From: Terriglobia bacterium
GTDB taxonomy: Bacteria > Acidobacteriota > Terriglobia > Bryobacterales > Bryobacteraceae
Length of the DNA stretch: 63,233 nt
Reading direction: 5' to 3'
NCBI GenBank assembly: GCA_020073345.1
Contig: JAIQFI010000038.1
Location: 1 to 63,233, forward strand
The notes beneath the pieces were generated by a model, which did no database searches, was not told the DNA's origin, and saw only the letters and a program-made list of their open reading frames with translations. Shown piece after piece: positions 4,134-15,197 of this stretch. The stretch's first letter is position 1; each line of letters opens with the position of its first letter. Position numbers and translations under genes: made by a program.

Positions 4134-4305
4134 GTTTCGGCGACTGTTTCTGTTGTACTTGTCCGTAGCTCACCAAATCAAATCACCACCGCGCACTGCA
4201 GAGCGCCTGAGGACGGCCAGTCAATACTCCACGGCACGTTTGAAGAGCAGTTTCCCAGTGCGTTCGGAGACTCTCTAATGTAACGGAGTTTTCTCAGGAT
4301 CACTT

Positions 4306-5639: not shown

Positions 5640-6791
5640 ATGCATCACCATGCCCATGCGCATTCGCGGCGCGATTTTTTCAGCAAGGCCTTCGGAGGCG
5701 CGCTCGCCGGGGCTTCGATCATCGAGGAAGCGTTCCTGCGCGCGACCTGGGCGCGGGCCCAGGCGCCGGGAGCGAGCCCGAATCTGTTCACCATCGAGAA
5801 GGTCGCCGACGGCGTTTATGCCGCGCTGGCACGGCCGCAGGTTCTGACGAACTGTAACGCGGCCATCTTCGTGAACTCGCAGGACGTGCTGGTTGTGGAC
5901 GCTCACTCGAAGCCCTCGGCAGCCGCCGCACTCATCGCCCAGATCAAGAAGGACGTTACAACCAAGCCAGTCCGCTATCTGGTCAACAGCCATTTCCACT
6001 GGGACCACACGCAGGGCGACGCAGCTTATAAGACCAGCGGCGCGAAAGTGGACATCATCGCCAGCGACGCGACCAAGCAGTTGATGACCCAGCTTTCCCG
6101 CAACCGCCTCAAGGAATCGCTCGACGGCGTTCCGAAGCAGATCGATGACGTTCAGGCCCGCCTGGCCAAAGCGACCTCGAGTGCCGACAAGGAACGCTAC
6201 ACAGAACTGATCCGTCAACTGAAGGCGTATCAAACCGAAATGAAAAGTTACACACTCGAACTGCCGACCATTACCTTTGCCAAGTCGCACGTGATAAAGG
6301 ACACGGCGGGAGATCTGCATATCGAGTTCCATGGGCGTGCCCACACTGCAGGGGACGTCGCTGTGTTCTCGCCCCAGAAACGCGTGGTCGCTTCAGGAGA
6401 CGTGATTATCGGCTTCCTGCCTAACATCGCCGACGGGTATCCGAAACCCTGGCCCGCGACGATCGATTCGGTCGGGCAACTCGCGTTCGATCACATCATC
6501 CCGGGACACGGGCCGGTCCACCACGACCGTGCACGCATGACGCAAATGCGGAATTATATCGAGGAGTTAACCGGACGCGTCGAAGAGGGCAAGAAAGCGG
6601 GCAAGCCGCTTGCTGAATTGCAAAGGACGCTCACGATGGCGTCGATCAAGACCTTACAAGCCAACGGATACCGCAGCTACGTTGCAGACAATCTGAACAA
6701 GTTCACGGTGTACCTCGGGCAGAAAACGGCGGTCGAGGACCGTCTGTCGGCGAATATCGAAGCGATCTACAAGAATCTGGACCGCGCTTGA
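5640..6791 (+). CDS. Tat-exported metallo-beta-lactamase-fold hydrolase
   Basis: The 383-residue protein starts at ATG 5640, preceded by gaagaggag. A twin-arginine signal (HSRRDFFSKAFGGALAG) indicates export of the folded, metal-loaded enzyme. The metal site has HFHWDH (about residues 117-122), a histidine in GRAHTAGD (about 231), an aspartate in VVASGDVI (about 251) and a histidine in IIPGHGPV (about 290). The C-terminal ~90 residues are helical. The substrate is unknown; this subgroup includes quinoprotein-relay-like and lactonase-like hydrolases. Its 3' end overlaps the convergent cyclase-like gene by 25 bases. Confidence 0.9.
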   Translation: MHHHAHAHSRRDFFSKAFGGALAGASIIEEAFLRATWARAQAPGASPNLFTIEKVADGVYAALARPQVLTNCNAAIFVNSQDVLVVDAHSKPSAAAALIAQIKKDVTTKPVRYLVNSHFHWDHTQGDAAYKTSGAKVDIIASDATKQLMTQLSRNRLKESLDGVPKQIDDVQARLAKATSSADKERYTELIRQLKAYQTEMKSYTLELPTITFAKSHVIKDTAGDLHIEFHGRAHTAGDVAVFSPQKRVVASGDVIIGFLPNIADGYPKPWPATIDSVGQLAFDHIIPGHGPVHHDRARMTQMRNYIEELTGRVEEGKKAGKPLAELQRTLTMASIKTLQANGYRSYVADNLNKFTVYLGQKTAVEDRLSANIEAIYKNLDRA

Positions 6792-7693
6792 ACGCGGGCT
6801 CCACATGGGTCCCGCCTTGGCGAGCCGGGTGCTTCATGTGCTACGGCCTTTACAGTGAGCGCACTGAGTACCGTTGCGGTGGTAAACACGCGTTGGGGGT
6901 CCGCAAAACATGGGCCTGCGTCGTCGCTCCCCTGGGGGACATACAAATCGCGATGCGTGAGTCTCAGGATCGGAGCGGTGGGCCAGCTTCCGTCAGAATC
7001 CTGCCCGCGACTAAGGTCTCCCGTATCGCCGCAAAGAACCAGACTCCGCAATGCCGCCTCAAAGGAATTCAGCGGCCGGATCCTGCGTAAGGCGCTGCAG
7101 GCTTCCAGCCGCGCCTGCTCGCCCAGTAAACGCACGGTCATCTCTGTCGCATAGCATGTGGACGTCCACCAATAGGAATCCCAAAGCCCATCCGCCCTTC
7201 GCCGCCGGCGCAGAAATACCGCTGCGCGTTCGATTGCTTGCGGGGCAACTTGTGCAGCTTTGAGCGCAAGAGCCGCGGTCGCGGTCACCTCCACCTGCGA
7301 TGCAGTCCAAGCCCCGAAGCTCTGCTCGAATCCATAAGTGCCGAAGCCGCCATCGTCCCGGTGGAAGGAAAGCAAGCGCCTCACCGCGCTCGCGGGCGCA
7401 CGCCGTCCCATCACATGCACGAACAAGATTCCCAAAGCGGTCGAGTCCGCATCCGCTCCGGTGGATTCCGAATAGCCCCAGCCGCCGCCTTCCAGTTCGT
7501 TCGCTTCCAGCCAATCCGCGGCGCGCTCCAAAGTGCCCTTCGCCGCCTGCCCGCACGAGGCCAGCCGCCAGCCAACATAAGCCGTCGTCCACATTCGCGA
7601 CGAGCCGACCGGGAGTTCCCAATCCTGCCAGAATCCCGACGCGTCTTGCTGCGAGGCCAAGAAAGCCAGCCCTATTTCGACCGCGCGGTTCAC
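6767..7693 (-). CDS. Terpenoid cyclase/prenyltransferase-toroid-like protein
   Basis: GTG 7693 is chosen because it overlaps the upstream stop in GTGA, which implies translational coupling; an in-frame ATG at 7777 would extend 87 bases into the neighbour. The 308 residues form alpha-alpha toroid repeats with QW-like pieces: ASQQDASGFW, GGGWGYSES, RDDGGFGTYGF, ADGLWDSYWW and QDSDGSWP. GADADSTALG resembles the DXDD region of squalene-hopene cyclases but with Ser for the last Asp. It is about half the length of a true cyclase, so it may bind a prenyl substrate or be structural. It is the last gene of the run headed by the ECF sigma factor. Confidence 0.7.
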   Translation of the reverse strand: MNRAVEIGLAFLASQQDASGFWQDWELPVGSSRMWTTAYVGWRLASCGQAAKGTLERAADWLEANELEGGGWGYSESTGADADSTALGILFVHVMGRRAPASAVRRLLSFHRDDGGFGTYGFEQSFGAWTASQVEVTATAALALKAAQVAPQAIERAAVFLRRRRRADGLWDSYWWTSTCYATEMTVRLLGEQARLEACSALRRIRPLNSFEAALRSLVLCGDTGDLSRGQDSDGSWPTAPILRLTHRDLYVPQGSDDAGPCFADPQRVFTTATVLSALTVKAVAHEAPGSPRRDPCGARVQARSRFL

Positions 7694-8793
7694 AGATCGC
7701 CACGTCCCGGATTCAAGTAGATACTGGCGTAAAGCTGATCGCGCCTCATCCCGACGCCCACGTAGGTATGAACACACGTAGACCCCCGGCTATCGCGATC
7801 GCCAGTAAGAATCCTGATCACGTCGCGATATACATCCGCCTCCATCCCGAGCCGTTCGAGCCACGTCCCGCAGCGCGCCTCAGCCTCGCAGTCGCTATTC
7901 CAGGCGCAGTGCCCGCACAGCTCAAGTTTCGGCGACCATGCCCCATCGCCATTCGAGCCGAAGGAAAACACCGCGGAGTGCGTTGGGAAGGCCGACTCGG
8001 CTTTCAGCGTTGCTTCGAAAAATACCGCAAGTGCGCGATCAAATGGTTCGGGGGCGCCTGCTTCTCGAAACATTCGCCTGTAATCCTGCGGCGTTACGCC
8101 GTACGCCCCAAAGTAGACGCGCGCGTGAAGGCGGCCGTGACCCGTGATCCGCACTCCAGCGCCCAGTGGCTTTAAAGTACCCGCTTGGGCAACGGCAAAA
8201 ATTCGCCCCCATTCAGCTTCCGCTACAGACCCAGCGAATTCCGCCAGCCGATTCCAACGCGAGTCTTCTGGTCCGCGGCGCGCATTCGCATGGACGGTCA
8301 TTGAGGCGGCACCTTCCGGCTCAAACGACGCCCCAATCCAAAACGCTCCCGCCGGATCTTCACCATCGCCCGCGGCCCCGCCGTGCGCCAGTGCTTCGAG
8401 AGGCTGTCGCACCGGCTCCAACTCAGGTGTCGCACCGATTGCCCCGGCAAGCCGCGTCATGCGCTCCAGGCCGGATTCGCGCCGCGCGGAGTATTCCATA
8501 CCGGTCTGAAATGCCTCGCCGACGAACTCGAAGGAAGGTCTCCGGCCCTCAATCAGCGATAGTGCAAATTGAACGGGCGTGCCGTCGGCATTGAGACTCG
8601 ACCAGCCCGCACCTGGACGCAGGGATTCGGCGCACACCAGATCCAGGCATCGGCGGATTTCCGCCTCCCGCTCGCGAAAGCCGAGGCGCCGGACCAGCCT
8701 CGTGAACCGGCCCGGCGTCCGTGCCTCTGGTTCACGCAAGCTGAACTTTTTGAAAGCCTGTTCGGCCGCGATTTGGTCTCCGAGGGCCATCAT
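7690..8793 (-). CDS. DMATS/ABBA-fold aromatic prenyltransferase-like protein
   Basis: ATG 8793 is preceded by GGAG seven bases away and gives 367 residues. Its start lies 62 bases inside the end of the previous gene. Features recalling bacterial tryptophan dimethylallyltransferase-type enzymes are SSLNADGTPVQFALS, ARVYFGAYGVTPQDYRRMF in the middle, and a final strand HTYVGVGMRRDQLYASIYLNPG. Such enzymes move a prenyl group from a diphosphate to an aromatic ring. A cysteine/tryptophan stretch (LCGHCAWNSDC) before the last strand is unusual. The assignment rests on motif pattern, not alignment. The partner directly downstream is a cyclase-fold protein, which fits an isoprenoid theme. Confidence 0.55.
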   Translation of the reverse strand: MMALGDQIAAEQAFKKFSLREPEARTPGRFTRLVRRLGFREREAEIRRCLDLVCAESLRPGAGWSSLNADGTPVQFALSLIEGRRPSFEFVGEAFQTGMEYSARRESGLERMTRLAGAIGATPELEPVRQPLEALAHGGAAGDGEDPAGAFWIGASFEPEGAASMTVHANARRGPEDSRWNRLAEFAGSVAEAEWGRIFAVAQAGTLKPLGAGVRITGHGRLHARVYFGAYGVTPQDYRRMFREAGAPEPFDRALAVFFEATLKAESAFPTHSAVFSFGSNGDGAWSPKLELCGHCAWNSDCEAEARCGTWLERLGMEADVYRDVIRILTGDRDSRGSTCVHTYVGVGMRRDQLYASIYLNPGRGDL

Positions 8794-9490
8794 CGGGTTT
8801 CTCCAATTTGATTTCGATGCGCGAGTCGGTGCGAGCATTAAAAACCAGGCCCTGTCCGACTCCAAGATCAAGTCGCCCTTTGATATCGAACCCGTTCGCC
8901 GTGCATTCGATCCGCACCGGAGCAGGCGGCACATACGGCTTGTCACCGATGATCGGGTAGCGCACCACAGCTTCCGCCACGGCCTTAGTCAGCGTGTTCC
9001 TGATCGAATAAGCGCCAGGCCGCAGAATCATCGCCGTGAACGCGTCGCCATTCTTCAATGTTCGCGTGTCGTAGCCTTTGTCGTTCTCCGCGGCGTCGAT
9101 CCGGCGCAGATGCACGTAGTATCCGCCTTGTCCGCCCTGGACGTGGAACAGCACGTAGCCGCGAGGATTGACGGCGTAACGCTTGCCGCCCGAGCTGTCT
9201 TTCGAATCCCCAGCACAGCCGCACCATTCTTCCGCGTCGGACGCGGGCGCGGCCGACTGGGCCTTCTCCAGACCGGCCAAATCAACAGTCACCTGAGCGA
9301 CCGGACTGTTACTGTCGGCCAGGATGAAGAACACCGCCTTAACATCGGGGCCGTGGTGCAGCGCTCCGCGATACTCCCCTGGTTCGCCCAACTGGTGCAC
9401 GATCGTTCCCAGCATGGTGAGCGAGCCGCTGTCCAGCCCGATCTGAGTGTACAGGTTCGGGTCAAGTGTCGTTTTCAATCTTGTCGTCAT
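8732..9490 (-). CDS. Unknown protein of the sigma-factor-headed cluster
   Basis: This reads as 252 residues from ATG 9490, with gaaggga upstream; longer in-frame extensions run antisense through the next gene and were rejected. There is no signal peptide or membrane segment. It has a WCGC motif near residue 85, a Gly-rich strand pair (LFHVQGGQGGYYVHLRRID) and a beta-rich C-terminus ending basic. I do not recognise the family. It lies 23 bases after the upstream gene and overlaps the prenyltransferase-like gene by 62 bases, so co-expression is very likely. Confidence 0.7.
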   Translation of the reverse strand: MTTRLKTTLDPNLYTQIGLDSGSLTMLGTIVHQLGEPGEYRGALHHGPDVKAVFFILADSNSPVAQVTVDLAGLEKAQSAAPASDAEEWCGCAGDSKDSSGGKRYAVNPRGYVLFHVQGGQGGYYVHLRRIDAAENDKGYDTRTLKNGDAFTAMILRPGAYSIRNTLTKAVAEAVVRYPIIGDKPYVPPAPVRIECTANGFDIKGRLDLGVGQGLVFNARTDSRIEIKLEKPDDGPRRPNRGRTGFQKVQLA

Positions 9491-9513
9491 TGTATTTGGC
9501 TCCCTTCTTCGCC

Positions 9514-10419
9514 TCAGCCCACATCGGCCGTGACAATCATTTCCTTGGAGTTCACGTGTGACGCCAGGTTCCGGATCGGAATCTTCACCGGAATCAGACC
9601 AGGCCCCGCGTCCAGCACCGGATAGGGATCTTCGAACTCGTAAATCGGCGTCTTCGCTGCGAAGTAATCCGCGATCGCCGTCTCGATAATTCCCAGCAAA
9701 TCGAAGGTGTTCATCAACAGGTCGGTGAGCCAGTCGTTGATGTCGCCAACGATGCCTAGTAACCCTTTCACCAAATCGAGGATCGGCCCGATGGCGGCGA
9801 GCAGCGCGTCCACGATGAATCCGGGAAGCACCGGGAACATGTTCTCGATAGCGTCTCGCACAATATTCTCGATGATATTCGCGATCGACGCAGGTATGTC
9901 GATCGGATCGACGTGGACGAATACGGGGTCGAGAAAGATGCGCCACTTGTTCGGATGCCCGGCGAACTCCGCGTCGAGATCCGATTCGCCGGCGGTCCGA
10001 GCCGGATCGACGAAGTAAACGGGTTTCAGATTGGCCTTTAAGTCGTTCACTTCGGAAACTAGTCCGCTTAGATCGAGCGGCACGCAGATCGGTCCTCCAA
10101 TGCAGATCTTGGGCACGCCCACCAGGCAGCCGTTCCACGGATCCGGAATGATGCACCAGCCTCCGATGCAGAATCCAGGAAGATTAAAGCACACTTCCAC
10201 TTTCAAGGTATCCCAGACGATCTTGAGATGCTTCACCTCCACAGTGTCATCATTGTTGAGCTGGATATTGCCACCTTCCAGGTGCATGGCAACCGAGTAG
10301 CTTGCGGAAAACGGACCGAAGCTGCCGGAGTCGCTCTTGGAGAACGTGAAGTTATCGCGGATCTTGTTGAACAACTGCACGAACGCGTTCGATGATGCGG
10401 CGATTGTAATGTGGCTCAT
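9514..10419 (-). CDS. Unknown hydrophobic/amphipathic protein, possible TULIP-like lipid binder
   Basis: The 301-residue protein has no signal peptide. The N-terminal half is beta-rich with several cysteines (LPGFCIGGWCIIPDP, PKICIGGPICVPL). The middle is a long amphipathic helical stretch (IENIVRDAIENMFPVLPGFI, then LLAAIGPILDLVKGLLGIV). The end (GLIPVKIPIRNL) is a beta strand pair. A helix-wrapped beta arrangement of this type recalls tubular lipid-binding proteins, including the signal-less OrfX/P47 type; that is a hypothesis. The next gene upstream is of similar size and character, 14 bases away. Confidence 0.6.
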   Translation of the reverse strand: MSHITIAASSNAFVQLFNKIRDNFTFSKSDSGSFGPFSASYSVAMHLEGGNIQLNNDDTVEVKHLKIVWDTLKVEVCFNLPGFCIGGWCIIPDPWNGCLVGVPKICIGGPICVPLDLSGLVSEVNDLKANLKPVYFVDPARTAGESDLDAEFAGHPNKWRIFLDPVFVHVDPIDIPASIANIIENIVRDAIENMFPVLPGFIVDALLAAIGPILDLVKGLLGIVGDINDWLTDLLMNTFDLLGIIETAIADYFAAKTPIYEFEDPYPVLDAGPGLIPVKIPIRNLASHVNSKEMIVTADVG

Positions 10420-10433
10420 GGTCAGCCTCCTTT

Positions 10434-11240
10434 CTAGACCGTCATCTTGATGAAGATCTTGAGTTGATCTTCTTCCACCGCCGGATTATTGGGAACCGGC
10501 GGATTTGGACTCGGCGATAGCGTCACAGTCGCAATGTCAAACAGGGGGAAACTCAACGTGAGCTTCTCCATCTGAATCGCCAGCTTCTCCCGAAGCACCG
10601 CGGTGACGCACATCTTGAGGTAGCACTCGAGGTTTGACTCCAGCCCATCCGGCGTGATGTCGACGATCTCGATGCCATCCACGTGCCCGAGCAGGAAGCC
10701 ATTCTCGAGCGTGAAATGGCCGGTGGCGAACACCTCCAAGCAGAAACAGATCGGCTGGGTGCGGAGCACCACTTGAGTCTTTGGCCCTTCGAACGTCGCC
10801 GCATTGGGAGAAGTACCGCCGATAGGGATCTGCTCGAGTTCCTTTTCCGAGGCACACCCCAATCCACCACACACCTGGAAGTCGAGTGCAAAGTGCTGCG
10901 GTTGCAGGGGCGGGCTCAACTGCGGCGGAAGCGAAAACTTATTGCCGGGATGGAAGTCAATCAACGCCTTCGTCAGTTGCGCGATGAACCCGATTCCAAT
11001 GGGAGGGGAGTCCGCACCGAGAATGGGCAGCGGCGGCAGGATGGTGAAGAAGGAGTTCTTATACTTCACCACATCGCTGGTTACGTCGATTTTTGAACAC
11101 CACAGCTCGCGGTTGCTGGCAATATCCGCAGTTGCGTAGTTGAACCACGATGGCCGCTGGCGCCGGATGTGGTTGATGACCCGATTCACTCCGTCCTCGT
11201 GGACGGAAGCGAAAAGCTCGCAATTGTCTGTGAACGCCAC
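10434..11240 (-). CDS. Unknown protein paired with the downstream amphipathic protein
   Basis: GTG 11240 is the start because AGGAGG lies nine bases before it; an ATG at 11282 lacks a ribosome site. The 268 residues begin AFTDNCELFASVHEDGVNRVINH and include a WFNYATADI motif, a cysteine cluster (VCGGLGCASEKE, QPICFCLEVF) and a C-terminal beta region ending QLKIFIKMTV. There is no signal peptide. I do not recognise the family. Like its neighbour it alternates amphipathic strands with proline-rich loops. It is the first structural gene after the sigma gene, from which 210 noncoding bases separate it; these could hold an internal promoter. Confidence 0.65.
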   Translation of the reverse strand: MAFTDNCELFASVHEDGVNRVINHIRRQRPSWFNYATADIASNRELWCSKIDVTSDVVKYKNSFFTILPPLPILGADSPPIGIGFIAQLTKALIDFHPGNKFSLPPQLSPPLQPQHFALDFQVCGGLGCASEKELEQIPIGGTSPNAATFEGPKTQVVLRTQPICFCLEVFATGHFTLENGFLLGHVDGIEIVDITPDGLESNLECYLKMCVTAVLREKLAIQMEKLTLSFPLFDIATVTLSPSPNPPVPNNPAVEEDQLKIFIKMTV

Positions 11241-11450
11241 GGAATCAGTCCTCCTGCTTGCTAATAGTGACAACTGAAGCACGGGCGTTTCACCATTTCG
11301 CCTCGGATTCTTCCGTGCCGGAGCGAGGCGCGAACATTTCGACTACACGAGTTCGCGCTGCTCACACTCAAGGAAAGCGGGGCTTGACAGTCAAACTGCA
11401 GCCGTGCCGCAGTTTGCGAGTTCACGAGAACCTGCGTGAGAAACGCGTCT

Positions 11451-12023
11451 TCAGAATGTGCCCGTCGCGGCGTGACTCTTGGAGGCGCCTTCACGAAAGC
11501 GGTTCTTGGCCCTATGAAGCAGTACTCGAAGATAGTCCCGCTTCACACCGCAGATGCGGCAAACCTCGTCCTTCTCTTTCTCTTCCAAGAAGAGGAGACG
11601 AAGGATTTGGCGGTCACGGGCAGGAAGCTGCTCTAGAATCTGACGGACGGCCCACTTCCGCTCCTCGTTGACATACCCTGCCTCCGGGTCCGGACCCGCC
11701 TCAGGAACGTCAACGCATTGTTCCGGCGGGGGAGAATGCCGCGAAACGGAGCGGTAATACTCGATCAGCACGTTGCTGCAAACGCCATTAACGAAAGCAC
11801 CCAACTTTTCCGGGTTCGTCAGTCCCTGCTTCCGCTTCAGCACATGAAGCACACGAAGGAAAGTCTCCTGTCGGGCATCTTCAACCGCCTGATCGTCTCG
11901 CAGCGCCCTACGGAGCTTGATCCGTAGTAACTCACTGAAATATGAGACGAACTGTTGCTCGGTTTCCCGTTCGCCATCGATCAAACGCTGAACGTATTCG
12001 CACGTGAACGCTTCGTATTGCAA
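11451..12023 (-). CDS. ECF-type RNA polymerase sigma factor
   Basis: The protein has 190 residues. Region 2 is seen as RDDQAVEDARQETFLRVLHVL followed by LGAFVNGVCSNVLIEYYRS. Region 4 is seen as LEQLPARDRQILRLLFLEEK plus the helix-turn-helix VCRICGVKRDYLRVLLHRAKNRF. No anti-sigma factor gene is adjacent. It is divergent from the cysteine-rich gene and upstream of five co-oriented unknown or prenyl-related genes, so it probably controls one or both arms of this cluster; that is inference from position. Confidence 0.9.
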   Translation of the reverse strand: MQYEAFTCEYVQRLIDGERETEQQFVSYFSELLRIKLRRALRDDQAVEDARQETFLRVLHVLKRKQGLTNPEKLGAFVNGVCSNVLIEYYRSVSRHSPPPEQCVDVPEAGPDPEAGYVNEERKWAVRQILEQLPARDRQILRLLFLEEKEKDEVCRICGVKRDYLRVLLHRAKNRFREGASKSHAATGTF

Positions 12024-12289
12024 GTAGGAGTTGCTCCTGCAGCTTCTGTAGTCTAGGCCCTAACCTAGAACCAGTCAAGAATTAGTACTAAAAGTGTTTT
12101 ACTTACGACTCCTCCGGCCACCTACAACTCAGAAATAATTACCATTCGCATTGACCGCCTCTTGCGATCACCGGTCGTCAATCAAGTTCCACAGTTTTTT
12201 CCCGCTACGTGAAACGCCTGCCCAACCTAACTCACATAGACCAAGTGAAGAGCGAAGCATAAAGCAGATCCACACACTTGGAGGAACCC
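12024..12289. promoter_or_regulatory. Divergent promoter region of the cysteine-rich cluster
   Basis: The 266 bases between the sigma gene and the cysteine-rich gene are visibly more AT-rich than the coding flanks (for example ttagtactaaaagtgttttacttac near 12082-12106). This fits promoters for both directions. I cannot identify an ECF -35/-10 pair with confidence. The Shine-Dalgarno GGAGG just before 12290 serves the plus-strand gene. Confidence 0.45.
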
Positions 12290-14533
12290 ATGGCTGATGA
12301 TACTCGGACTCCGTCCGGAGGCGGCAGCGACAACATTCAGGATCCAGATTTCCGATTCTTGCTCGAATCGCTTCTGGCGGCCTACGAACCAATCCTCGCC
12401 GAAGACCTTAAGCTGGTGAAATCACTGGATAAAATCGTGGACCCGGGCGACGGCCCGGACTGCGATTCCGAGATCGAACTCGCCAATCAGATCTTCGGCA
12501 AATTCTGGAATGAAAAAGTCGCAGTAGCCGTGCTGCCCGCCGACGCTCGCGAGCGTCTCGGCCCCATCGAGAAATGGCGCTGGTGTTTCCTGCACATCCG
12601 TTGTTGCATCATCTTCGGCTGGTTGCTGTGCCGTGGCCCGCGCGGGATCCGCGGCTATAGCTACTACCTCAACCGCTATTGGCGGTGCGTCCGTGAAGTT
12701 CTCGAGCGACCGGTGTCCAATCCCCCCACGGCGGCGGAGCTGCGCGATTTCGAGGTCCTCGTTTCCGCGTTGTCCGACGCCTACCGGCCGTACCTGCAAG
12801 ATCAGCTCAGCACAGCCGACGCCTCAGCGCAAGTAGCCGGCGACGTCATCTCCGGCAAAATCGACTGCGAAACCGACACGGGCGAGGTCATCGCAGTCTT
12901 CGAACGCGCGCTCACGCCAGCAGCCGTCGAAGCTTTGCTAGGCGCCGATGCGTTTGCAGCTCACCGTCAGGATCCGTTCTTCTGGTTCTGCCGCTGCTGG
13001 TGCCTATGTGCGATTCGCTTCGGATGCTGCCTGGCCCGCGCACGCCGCGTACGCGACATCTATCGCTGTCTCCGCTTCTTCCGCGCCTGCCTGCGCGATT
13101 GTTTCCGGCCCTTGGTCTGCGAGCTCACCGGTCCCACGGGCTGCGCGGACGAAATCACCATCCAAGCCTTACCCGGTTTCCTGGTCCCCGTCACCGGAAC
13201 CGCGGGTGGATCTGGCTTCTCCCACTACATCCTGGAATGGTCGACCGATGGCGTGACTTACCATGCCGACAGTTTCTACTACCCGCCCATTCCCCCCGGA
13301 AATCCCGTGCAAGGAAATCTGCCCGTGTTCGGCGGCCTTCTGGGGTATTTCGATACCACCCTGCAAGGTCCCGGGCTGCACTTCATCCGGCTCCGTGTGT
13401 TCTCTGTCACAGGAGCCATTTGCGAACAAGTCAAGTTCTTCACTCTCTCGAAGAAAGACGTCCGCATCTTGGGCGTGGGCGGCTACTTCAACCTGAACAG
13501 CGGCCCGACCGACCCCAATGCCATGTTCGTCGAGACGGTACCCCTACTGTGCACGCGTCCCCAGTCCATCTCGGAAGTCTCGTTCGGAGGTTGCCTCTCG
13601 GTCAGCGGCGGAGCCTTCGTCGGCGGCTGCGAAAACAAGAGCATCAAGCGCTACACGCTCGACTTCAAACCTGGCTTTGAAATCAGCTGCGCAACACCGG
13701 GCTGGACCAAGTTCTGGGAAGTCGACTACGATACGCCCGCGAAAAATCGCTTCATCAACTGGCGCCTGGACTCCTCCGTCCTCACCAGCGATTGGGTGGA
13801 CGATTGTTTCATCCCCAGCTTCATCCCGCCGTTCTGCGCACCGCTGACTCGGGTTCTGCCGCAGTCGCTGCTGTCTCCCGATTGTTGGAAGACGCTCACC
13901 GGCGCCTGCGAGATGAGCGGCTTGGTCACGCTGCGCCTCACGGTGGAGGCCACCGATGGCTCTACCTACTGCGATACCCAGCGCATCTGGCTCGACAACA
14001 AGAACATCTGCGCCCGGATCCGTATCGATGCGGTGCCGAAGTGTGCCGACCTTTTCGTAAGCAAATTCGCAGTGCCGCCCGATTGCTTCACAGAATGGAA
14101 ACTGCCTGTTTCCGGCATTGCCTACGATCCCTACATCGATCCTCTGGCGCCGCTCAGCCGGCCCAACGACAACTTCGACTACTACACGGTCACCGTCACC
14201 AAGCAAGGAGGGCCGTCCCTCCAGATTCCGATCCCCGGACCGGGCGGATCCTGCTACCACGGCGTCACCCGGGTAGGCTCCTGCACGCAATGTCCTGGCG
14301 ATCCCCTGGGTGGCGACATCTACGGAACACTGGCCACGTTCGACCTGCGTGCCGTGGACCCGAAGTGCAGTCAGCAGCTCCCCTATAACGTGCCGAATGG
14401 TTTCACCATCGACCGTCAGGAGTGCTGTGTTTACACCTTCTCGATCTACGCCCAGGACCGGACCATCACCCCTGGAGGGCCGCATTGGGCGACCGATTTC
14501 TGGCCGGTCAAGATCTGCAATGACCTAAAGTAG
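12290..14533 (+). CDS. Large cysteine-rich protein with tandem N-terminal repeat and Ig-like segments
   Basis: ATG 12290 follows GGAGG and gives 747 residues with about 38 cysteines. Residues ~19-150 and ~152-279 are two copies of one domain. Each starts DF..L...L..AY.P.L, passes DC.(S/T), and ends in a basic, aromatic, cysteine-dense helix pair (WRWCFLHIRCCIIFGWLLCRG; FWFCRCWCLCAIRFGCCLARA). From ~285 a beta-rich Ig/FnIII-like segment follows (HYILEWSTDGVTYH to HFIRLRVFSVTG), then more beta domains with spaced cysteines. There is no signal peptide. I do not recognise a family. It could bind metal or be disulfide-stabilised after non-classical export. It forms an apparent operon with the next two genes (15- and 16-base gaps). 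Confidence 0.75.
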   Translation: MADDTRTPSGGGSDNIQDPDFRFLLESLLAAYEPILAEDLKLVKSLDKIVDPGDGPDCDSEIELANQIFGKFWNEKVAVAVLPADARERLGPIEKWRWCFLHIRCCIIFGWLLCRGPRGIRGYSYYLNRYWRCVREVLERPVSNPPTAAELRDFEVLVSALSDAYRPYLQDQLSTADASAQVAGDVISGKIDCETDTGEVIAVFERALTPAAVEALLGADAFAAHRQDPFFWFCRCWCLCAIRFGCCLARARRVRDIYRCLRFFRACLRDCFRPLVCELTGPTGCADEITIQALPGFLVPVTGTAGGSGFSHYILEWSTDGVTYHADSFYYPPIPPGNPVQGNLPVFGGLLGYFDTTLQGPGLHFIRLRVFSVTGAICEQVKFFTLSKKDVRILGVGGYFNLNSGPTDPNAMFVETVPLLCTRPQSISEVSFGGCLSVSGGAFVGGCENKSIKRYTLDFKPGFEISCATPGWTKFWEVDYDTPAKNRFINWRLDSSVLTSDWVDDCFIPSFIPPFCAPLTRVLPQSLLSPDCWKTLTGACEMSGLVTLRLTVEATDGSTYCDTQRIWLDNKNICARIRIDAVPKCADLFVSKFAVPPDCFTEWKLPVSGIAYDPYIDPLAPLSRPNDNFDYYTVTVTKQGGPSLQIPIPGPGGSCYHGVTRVGSCTQCPGDPLGGDIYGTLATFDLRAVDPKCSQQLPYNVPNGFTIDRQECCVYTFSIYAQDRTITPGGPHWATDFWPVKICNDLK

Positions 14534-14548
14534 CTCCTGGGAGAAATC

Positions 14549-14869
14549 ATGGCACTCGAGTGGGGTAGTGGCGAATTTTGGGCCCGATTCGCCATTGCCT
14601 CGCTCGCCACTTGGCGCATCGCTCACTTGTTCGCCTTCGAAGATGGGCCCGGCGACGCGGTCGTTTGGCTGCGGCAGAAAGCAGGCTCCGGCTTCTTCGG
14701 ACAGCTGATGGATTGTTTTTACTGCCTGTCGCTCTGGGCCGCGGCACCTTTTGCCCCTTTCGTCAACCCGAGCCCGGCCAAAGCTTTCATTGCCTGGGTG
14801 GCCCTGTCCGGCTCGGCGTGCCTGTTAGAGCGGGCCACATCTCCACCAATTCCGATCGACCGTTCCTAA
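14549..14869 (+). CDS. Small membrane protein, DUF1360-like
   Basis: The 106 residues begin at ATG 14549, with gggaga upstream. The pattern ATWRIAHLFAFEDGPGDAVVWLRQKAG followed by MDCFYCLSLWAAAPFA matches the DUF1360-type membrane family, with its conserved CxxC near the second helix. Two or three hydrophobic helices are present. Function is unknown in the family. It lies 15 bases after the cysteine-rich gene and probably acts with it. Confidence 0.7.
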   Translation: MALEWGSGEFWARFAIASLATWRIAHLFAFEDGPGDAVVWLRQKAGSGFFGQLMDCFYCLSLWAAAPFAPFVNPSPAKAFIAWVALSGSACLLERATSPPIPIDRS

Positions 14870-14885
14870 GTGGGAGGAAAAGACG

Positions 14886-15197
14886 ATGTCATGTTGTGGA
14901 CAGAAACGTGAAGCAATGGCCGACGGTGTCCGTTCCGAGCAGCGCTCCACCGGCTACGCGGCGCCTTCTCCAAGAAGCTCCTTCGTGGACCGCGGTCCCG
15001 TCAGACCGCCCGTCGTTACCGTCGCCACGCCCAGCGAGCTGGCCGTCACGCTTGTCTGCCGGAACTCCGCGGTGGTGTCCGTGACGGGTCCCGTCACTGG
15101 CAAGCGCTACCGTTTCACCGGCGCCGGCTCCATGCAAGCCATAGACCAGCGCGACGCCGATGGCCTGGTGGCGACCGGCTCCTTTCAACGCGTCTGA
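14886..15197 (+). CDS. Small protein with N-terminal SCCGQ motif
   Basis: This 103-residue protein starts MSCCGQKRE. A disordered Ser/Arg/Pro linker follows, then a compact beta domain (VVSVTGPVTGKRYRFTGAG, then AIDQRDADGLVATGSFQ). GGAGG lies seven bases before ATG 14886. The vicinal cysteines at the very N-terminus suggest metal binding or thiol chemistry, in keeping with the cysteine-rich partner upstream. I know of no function for it. It ends 18 bases before a convergent gene. Confidence 0.65.
   Translation: MSCCGQKREAMADGVRSEQRSTGYAAPSPRSSFVDRGPVRPPVVTVATPSELAVTLVCRNSAVVSVTGPVTGKRYRFTGAGSMQAIDQRDADGLVATGSFQRV

Follow-up and report, generated by a model that had tools for sequence, protein, structure and literature searches.

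A stretch of 63,233 nt, called the window here, was analysed; it covers positions 1 to 63,233 of contig JAIQFI010000038.1 of a Terriglobia bacterium (Acidobacteriota, Bryobacterales, Bryobacteraceae; assembly GCA_020073345.1, genome of 6.2 Mb, 97.5% complete). Between positions 6767 and 15197 it carries nine genes in two divergent arms around an extracytoplasmic function (ECF) sigma factor, sigma_a. The reading to which we lean is that these genes are a composite cluster of two separate modules placed inside an ECF sigma regulon linked to CHAT proteases. Arm A encodes three proteins called the trio (w268, w301 and w252), a DMATS/ABBA-type prenyltransferase-like protein and a class II terpene cyclase-like protein. 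Arm B encodes a 747-aa Cys-rich protein, a DUF1360 protein and a CCGQ protein. One ECF-type promoter motif precedes both arms, and the same motif was found at a sigma-CHAT locus of this genome and in other genomes, where each module occurs without the other.

A preliminary description of this DNA had reported nine tightly packed genes with overlaps of 4 to 62 bases, and their order and spacing were found again, with all nine open reading frames (ORFs) of both arms at the same coordinates. It had also proposed a single self-regulated system with a Cys-rich scaffold for an isoprenoid, and here the results led elsewhere, as described below.

Promoter motif of the two arms

The motif TG[A/T]AACG-N15-TCAC(TA) was first noticed by reading upstream regions, those of the window included. 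A strict pattern, written after the motif had been noticed, gave 10 matches in 440,547 bases versus a mean of 0.25 in 20 shuffles. With a matrix built from 18 sites outside the window, the sites of the two arms ranked first (24.8) and second (16.4) among 126,412 positions, the third scoring 12.8. The first site, TGAAACG-N15-TCACTA (11265..11292, minus strand), lies 24 nt before w268, and the second, TGAAACG-N15-TCACAT (12210..12237, plus strand), 52 nt before the Cys-rich gene. Leave-locus-out scores of at least 15 were found before 10 of 24 CCGQ operons (one of them, L063, at a matrix-only site). Six of 185 comparison genes also reached 15, all of them training sites in sigma/CHAT or G020 island loci, and the other 179 stayed at or below 13.0.

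The exact form TGWAACGN15TCACTA had 23 matches in 8 of 16 genomes, about half of them already training sites, versus 3 for a backward control; in the source genome the counts were 4 and 0. One of the source-genome matches lies between patatin-like and animal-haem-peroxidase-like genes; phosphoesterase, unknown and papain genes come after the peroxidase gene. A second separates an MNIO-family gene from the sigma gene sigma_b, a third comes after a TPR-CHAT gene, and the fourth is the w268 site. The strict pattern also fits window positions 4279-4304 (a 26-nt form), where there is no suitable gene. Two further hits were left out of the evidence, one in L121 within a GMC oxidoreductase gene and one in L124 that faces a protein kinase gene next to one of the thermolysin family.

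Joint control headed by the sigma factor had been proposed at the outset; the motif before both arms agrees with it, and no sign of self-regulation was seen. The gene of sigma_a (11451..12023, minus strand, TTG start; TIGR02937 1.2e-18, Sigma70_r4_2 2.6e-8) scores only 3.8 for the ECF motif in its upstream 300 nt. It is preceded instead by a sigma70-like promoter match, TTGACT-17-TAGACT (12050..12078, minus strand; a consensus match only, 1 found versus a mean of 0.3 in shuffles). Because of this match, sigma_a may sit below or beside sigma_b.

Two modules found apart in other genomes

The protein encoded at 12290..14533 (plus strand), earlier called Cys-rich, does contain 38 Cys among its 747 residues. 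A low-confidence model shows a helical Cys/Arg/aromatic part at about residues 19-271 and then a strand-rich part. The protein is known from nine loci in two phyla: the window, L006 (the same as L010), L008, L009 and L048-L052. L008 and L009 are metagenome-assembled genomes (MAGs) of Rhodospirillales and Kiloniellales, respectively, and genome G027 has the same contig and match coordinates as L010. The alphaproteobacterial and L010 proteins are 43-45% identical to that of the window, with invariant stretches such as FWFCRCWCLCAIR. By sequence comparison, the gene's presence in the two alphaproteobacterial MAGs suggests transfer between phyla or great age. No Cys-rich gene was found in the 22 congeners searched (G001-G022), nor in G037.

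DUF1360 and CCGQ genes follow the Cys-rich gene in eight of the nine loci; in L009 neither stands directly downstream. In the window, the DUF1360 gene (14549..14869, plus strand) is a 106-aa ORF with a CxxCLSLW motif. Its description as a DUF1360-like membrane protein stood as to family (PF07098, 1.6e-6), and its hydropathy maximum was only moderate (1.33). The strongest segment in this crude scan of eight proteins belonged to w301 (2.01). The CCGQ protein (14886..15197, plus strand) starts with MSCCGQKR and has a conserved C-terminal GPxTGxxYxF part. Among 200 genomes of the order, its profile matched 30 when E<=0.01 was required and 25 when E<=0.001 was, the source genome and G027 counted. 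The neighbourhoods compared came from 20 of the other 28 matching genomes, taken by E-value order with one skipped, which was added later as L070. A DUF1360 gene stands just before CCGQ in all 20, and L070 carries both too. A protein of about 700-840 aa adjoins the pair in 16 of the 20 (Cys-rich in five, class 2 in two, class 3 in six and class 4 in three); by BLAST, classes 2 and 3 are weakly similar (best 1.2e-5) and no other similarity appeared at 1e-3. In L062 and L064 the contig stops close to DUF1360. At L055 (7912-10293) genes for a papain-family peptidase and an inhibitor of the chagasin family come before the pair, and a large protein was not seen there. At L054 (131-1696) it is divergent from a gene of the Pvc16_N family (8.8e-40), which we take to be a contractile injection system family, and the contig begins there.

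The trio of arm A is encoded on the minus strand by w268 (10434..11240, GTG start with AGGAGG upstream), w301 (9514..10419) and w252 (8732..9490). Relatives of w268 are found in 2 of 396 phylum genomes and 3 of 250 order genomes, the source genome counted. Four loci with the trio were found, all collinear: that of the window, one from the same family (L069), one from the same order (L007) and one from another part of the phylum (L014). The w268 and w301 proteins are clearly related among them. The third gene forms two groups, window with L014 (1e-40) and L007 with L069 (5e-46), linked weakly from L007 to L014 (3e-4) in a four-sequence comparison; w252 itself is strongly similar to L014 and shows weak direct similarity to L007 and L069. 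No PDB sequence match was obtained for w268 or w301. The motif NPQP(E/L)PP was seen in a large protein of L014 (1294-3636), in the class 3 proteins of L065 and L066 and in the trio protein of L069 at 10885-11553.

These results revealed that the modules are conserved separately. Among 31 other neighbourhood loci, trio genes matched only L007, L014 and L069 (tblastn, 1e-3). None of the five arm A genes lies near the Cys-rich module at the eight other loci where it was found, and the three other trio loci have neither Cys-rich nor terpenoid genes. By profile, w268 was not found in G027, G453, G454 and G455, which carry the Cys-rich gene (G455 and G027 are probably one genome); the genomes of L048-L052 were not itemised for w268, which matched only 3 of 250 order genomes. 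The nine-gene set was seen nowhere else, yet each half is conserved, a mixed outcome for the refuting condition of the preliminary description (no conserved neighbourhood in relatives). The single system with a Cys-rich scaffold is not supported.

The arms could be accidental neighbours, the prenyltransferase-cyclase set and the trio having landed beside an unrelated sigma/Cys-rich locus and being regulated separately. The modules are indeed apart in every other genome found, and the trio is motif-free elsewhere. However, the top motif score in 63 kb stands directly before the trio arm, in the correct orientation and 24 nt from the start codon, and we regard a chance neighbourhood as unlikely. 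Upstream of the trio in L007, L014 and L069 the score never exceeds 3.7, so that in the window the ECF-type promoter seems to have recruited arm A.

Proposed wider regulon and CHAT-linked sigma factors

The TPR-CHAT gene of the source genome belongs to the order sigma_b, zf-HC2-like protein, 279-aa protein, TPR-CHAT (C51). The protein after sigma_b is 31-34% identical to the zf-HC2 proteins of L051 and L057. A sigma gene beside an anti-sigma gene and TPR-CHAT was found at C51, L051 and L057, and sigma with CHAT in G020; the sigma-CHAT locus carries the same promoter motif as both window arms. An island in G020 holds orthologues of CHAT (73% identity), the 279-aa partner (72%), sigma_b (83%), MNIO (77%), papain (90%), phosphoesterase (91%), peroxidase (91%) and patatin (85%). 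The same island encodes a class 2 protein and the DUF1360-CCGQ pair, and the sigma factor beside this pair is, at 58% identity, the closest to sigma_a among the sigmas compared. Furthermore, two motif copies precede a related sigma gene in G036. In G884 one copy has a related sigma gene on one side and, on the other, the gene of a protein 31% like the anti-sigma of the source genome (no Pfam match at 1e-3); in G023 one lies 89 nt before a pro-kumamolisin-type peptidase gene.

The CHAT-partner family occurs in 19 of 25 CCGQ genomes versus 62 of 175 others (p=1.5e-4, a value that ignores phylogeny and takes two 200-genome draws as identical), the check for an adjacent CHAT gene covering part of the 81 matches. 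The exact motif is absent from six congeners without this family and present in 8 of 10 CCGQ genomes.

Beside the limits given with these counts, several points weigh against the composite cluster in a CHAT-linked regulon. The motif was first seen on a set containing the window, and its sites were chosen by pattern, congeneric orthologues among them. In 20 shuffled windows the best scores were 11.5-15.2 and once 22.6, above the 16.4 of the second site. The looser TGWAACGN15TCAC gave 10 matches versus 6 for the control in the source genome, five of the ten outside regulon loci. A strong motif is missing before 14 of the 24 CCGQ operons, including the Cys-rich genes of L006, L008 and L052; these genes and that of L009 score no higher than 5.4, with intermediate values for L048 (11.6) and L049 (10.6). 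The low trio scores in the other three loci belong here too. An exact match occurs in G910, where the CHAT partner is missing, and none occurs in G908 and G980, which carry the partner. Moreover, neither an anti-sigma nor a CHAT gene was seen in the window for sigma_a, and at least two related sigmas are candidate readers of the motif. The DMATS-like model described below, built from one sequence, is of low confidence.

Two side observations concern regulon genes. L084 (8744-11563) encodes, near patatin-like, phosphoesterase and papain genes, a protein of 939 aa that contains a domain of the animal haem peroxidases (6.1e-65); it is 91% identical in G020, with the motif at both. At L083 (6719-7690) a gene of the MbnB/TglH/ChrH (MNIO) family is divergent from the CHAT-linked sigma.

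Prenyltransferase-like and cyclase-like genes

The expected DMATS/ABBA-like and terpenoid-cyclase-fold proteins were both recovered in arm A. The cyclase gene (6767..7693, minus strand) encodes 308 aa from GTG 7693, in a frame open to 7777. Read from this GTG it overlaps the DMATS-like gene by 4 nt. Its 336-aa ORF matches Pfam SQHop_cyclase_C (6.5e-9) and, by phmmer against PDB, 8paj (1.6e-27) and MstE 6sbb (7.9e-14). The acid motif DADST is catalytic in class II cyclases, and the DADSTA of this protein aligns with 8paj in a single cyclase domain, as would suit that class. It resembles monodomain class II cyclases (8paj, 8pak, 6ij1, MstE 6sbb-6sbg) in size, in residues 28-218 and 255-314 and in the aligned DADST. 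It differs from them in that scores reach about 100 bits at best and that the partner prenyltransferase is of DMATS type.

The 367-aa DMATS-like protein (7690..8793, minus strand) overlaps w252 by 62 nt when read from ATG 8793. It matches NCBIfam TIGR03429 (2.9e-5) across 75 C-terminal residues only, below the curated cut-off (23.5 versus 163.85 bits). The low-confidence model shows a barrel of five alpha-beta-beta-alpha repeats, as in the ABBA fold. In structure searches with it, the best 50 rows of each all had prenyltransferase or DMATS titles, and we take all of these to be ABBA-type. Via alignments, identity to DMATS-family enzymes (DMATS1 8daz, TleC 4yzj, MpnD 4yl7, auraA 8y9d) is 8-16%; unlike them, the window gene sits beside a class II cyclase.

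Codon scores are near neutral for both genes and a simple gene caller overlooked both, so it is homology and fold that mark them as coding. These scores, with no convincing DMATS-like relative in 246 other phylum genomes, would suit two recent imports without a working role, the unit then being sigma, Cys-rich, DUF1360 and CCGQ genes, perhaps with the trio. Against this, the frames are open with translational overlaps, DADST is aligned and the predicted DMATS-like fold pattern is intact, which makes idle imports very improbable.

According to PDB titles, amino acids and cyclic dipeptides are among the substrates of DMATS-fold enzymes, and an MNIO-type gene, of a family modifying ribosomally synthesised and post-translationally modified peptides, is a likely regulon member. 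The genes could hence form a secondary-metabolite cluster under sigma control whose substrate, to become a prenylated peptide or protein, is supplied by the Cys-rich, CCGQ or trio proteins and is matured or exported by DUF1360-CCGQ. We consider this distinctly unlikely, since DUF1360-CCGQ goes with four large-protein classes in loci without a terpenoid match; neither terpenoid gene had a tblastn match at 1e-3 in the 31 other loci.

Proposed mechanism and comparison with known systems

In the composite cluster, an ECF sigma of this class would direct RNA polymerase to start at the TGAAACG-N15-TCAC(TA) sites flanking the sigma gene, and the same class of sigma would most likely also transcribe the wider regulon. 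From arm A, the ABBA prenyltransferase would put a prenyl chain on an aromatic acceptor (or an amino acid or peptide), the class II cyclase would then cyclise the prenylated molecule into a meroterpenoid-like product, and the leaderless trio proteins could carry or use it. Arm B would supply a large multidomain protein without a leader, together with DUF1360-CCGQ as its accessory pair. The pairing of a DMATS-type prenyltransferase with a monodomain class II cyclase is a possible route to new bacterial meroterpenoids.

The TPR-CHAT protease would turn the switch on by acting on an anti-sigma-like protein. In the type III-E CRISPR system, Csx29 cleavage of Csx30 lifts inhibition of CASP-sigma in the authors' model (PMC10028731). 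With the gene order, this precedent suggests by analogy that CHAT may act on the anti-sigma side here. There too, an ECF sigma is tied to a TPR-CHAT protease (Csx29), and candidate target promoters lie both at the locus and across the genome (PMC10028731). Unlike that system, no CRISPR genes were seen in the loci read (no genome-wide search for them was made), the candidate inhibitors are zf-HC2-like proteins and a 258-285-aa family, and the targets are enzymes and large proteins; proteolytic release would hold here by analogy. EACC2/caspase conflict neighbourhoods, which carry ECF sigma and TPR genes, are another of the nearest known systems, and the words 'acidobacteria', 'patatin' and 'peroxidase' are absent from their description (PMC8195603).

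The enzyme families of the wider regulon (patatin, haem peroxidase, phosphoesterase, papain, TPR-CHAT, MNIO) suggest an induced attack, defence or stress response. A bolder reading, possible though doubtful, is a sigma switch gated by the caspase-like CHAT protease, here with no CRISPR genes seen, that fires leaderless enzymes attacking lipids, proteins and redox targets together with a species-specific new meroterpenoid, DUF1360-CCGQ being a general pair for several mostly unrelated large leaderless effectors. If true, protease-linked ECF sigma control would reach from the CRISPR-associated case to an Acidobacteriota lineage, the promoter motif would make the regulon readable from genomes, and DUF1360, a name scarce in the literature searched, would gain a context. 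Each enzyme family is already known; in the literature searched, mostly without subscription papers, neither the gene combination nor the motif was met, nor was the exchange of large proteins beside DUF1360-CCGQ.

Additional protein annotation

Pfam and NCBIfam gave nothing at E<=0.05 for the 747-aa, 301-aa, 268-aa, 252-aa and CCGQ proteins, the match nearest to threshold being DUF5013 (0.054) for the 252-aa protein. As had been noted for the unknowns, which were said to lack signal peptides, no N-terminal hydrophobic stretch was found in eight of the nine window proteins by the crude hydropathy scan (sigma left out); outside the window, the absence of leaders in regulon proteins was judged by eye. 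PADLOC defence models had no matches at E<=0.01 for the 747-aa, DUF1360, w301, w268 and cyclase proteins, and weak matches appeared solely for the L057 CHAT protein.

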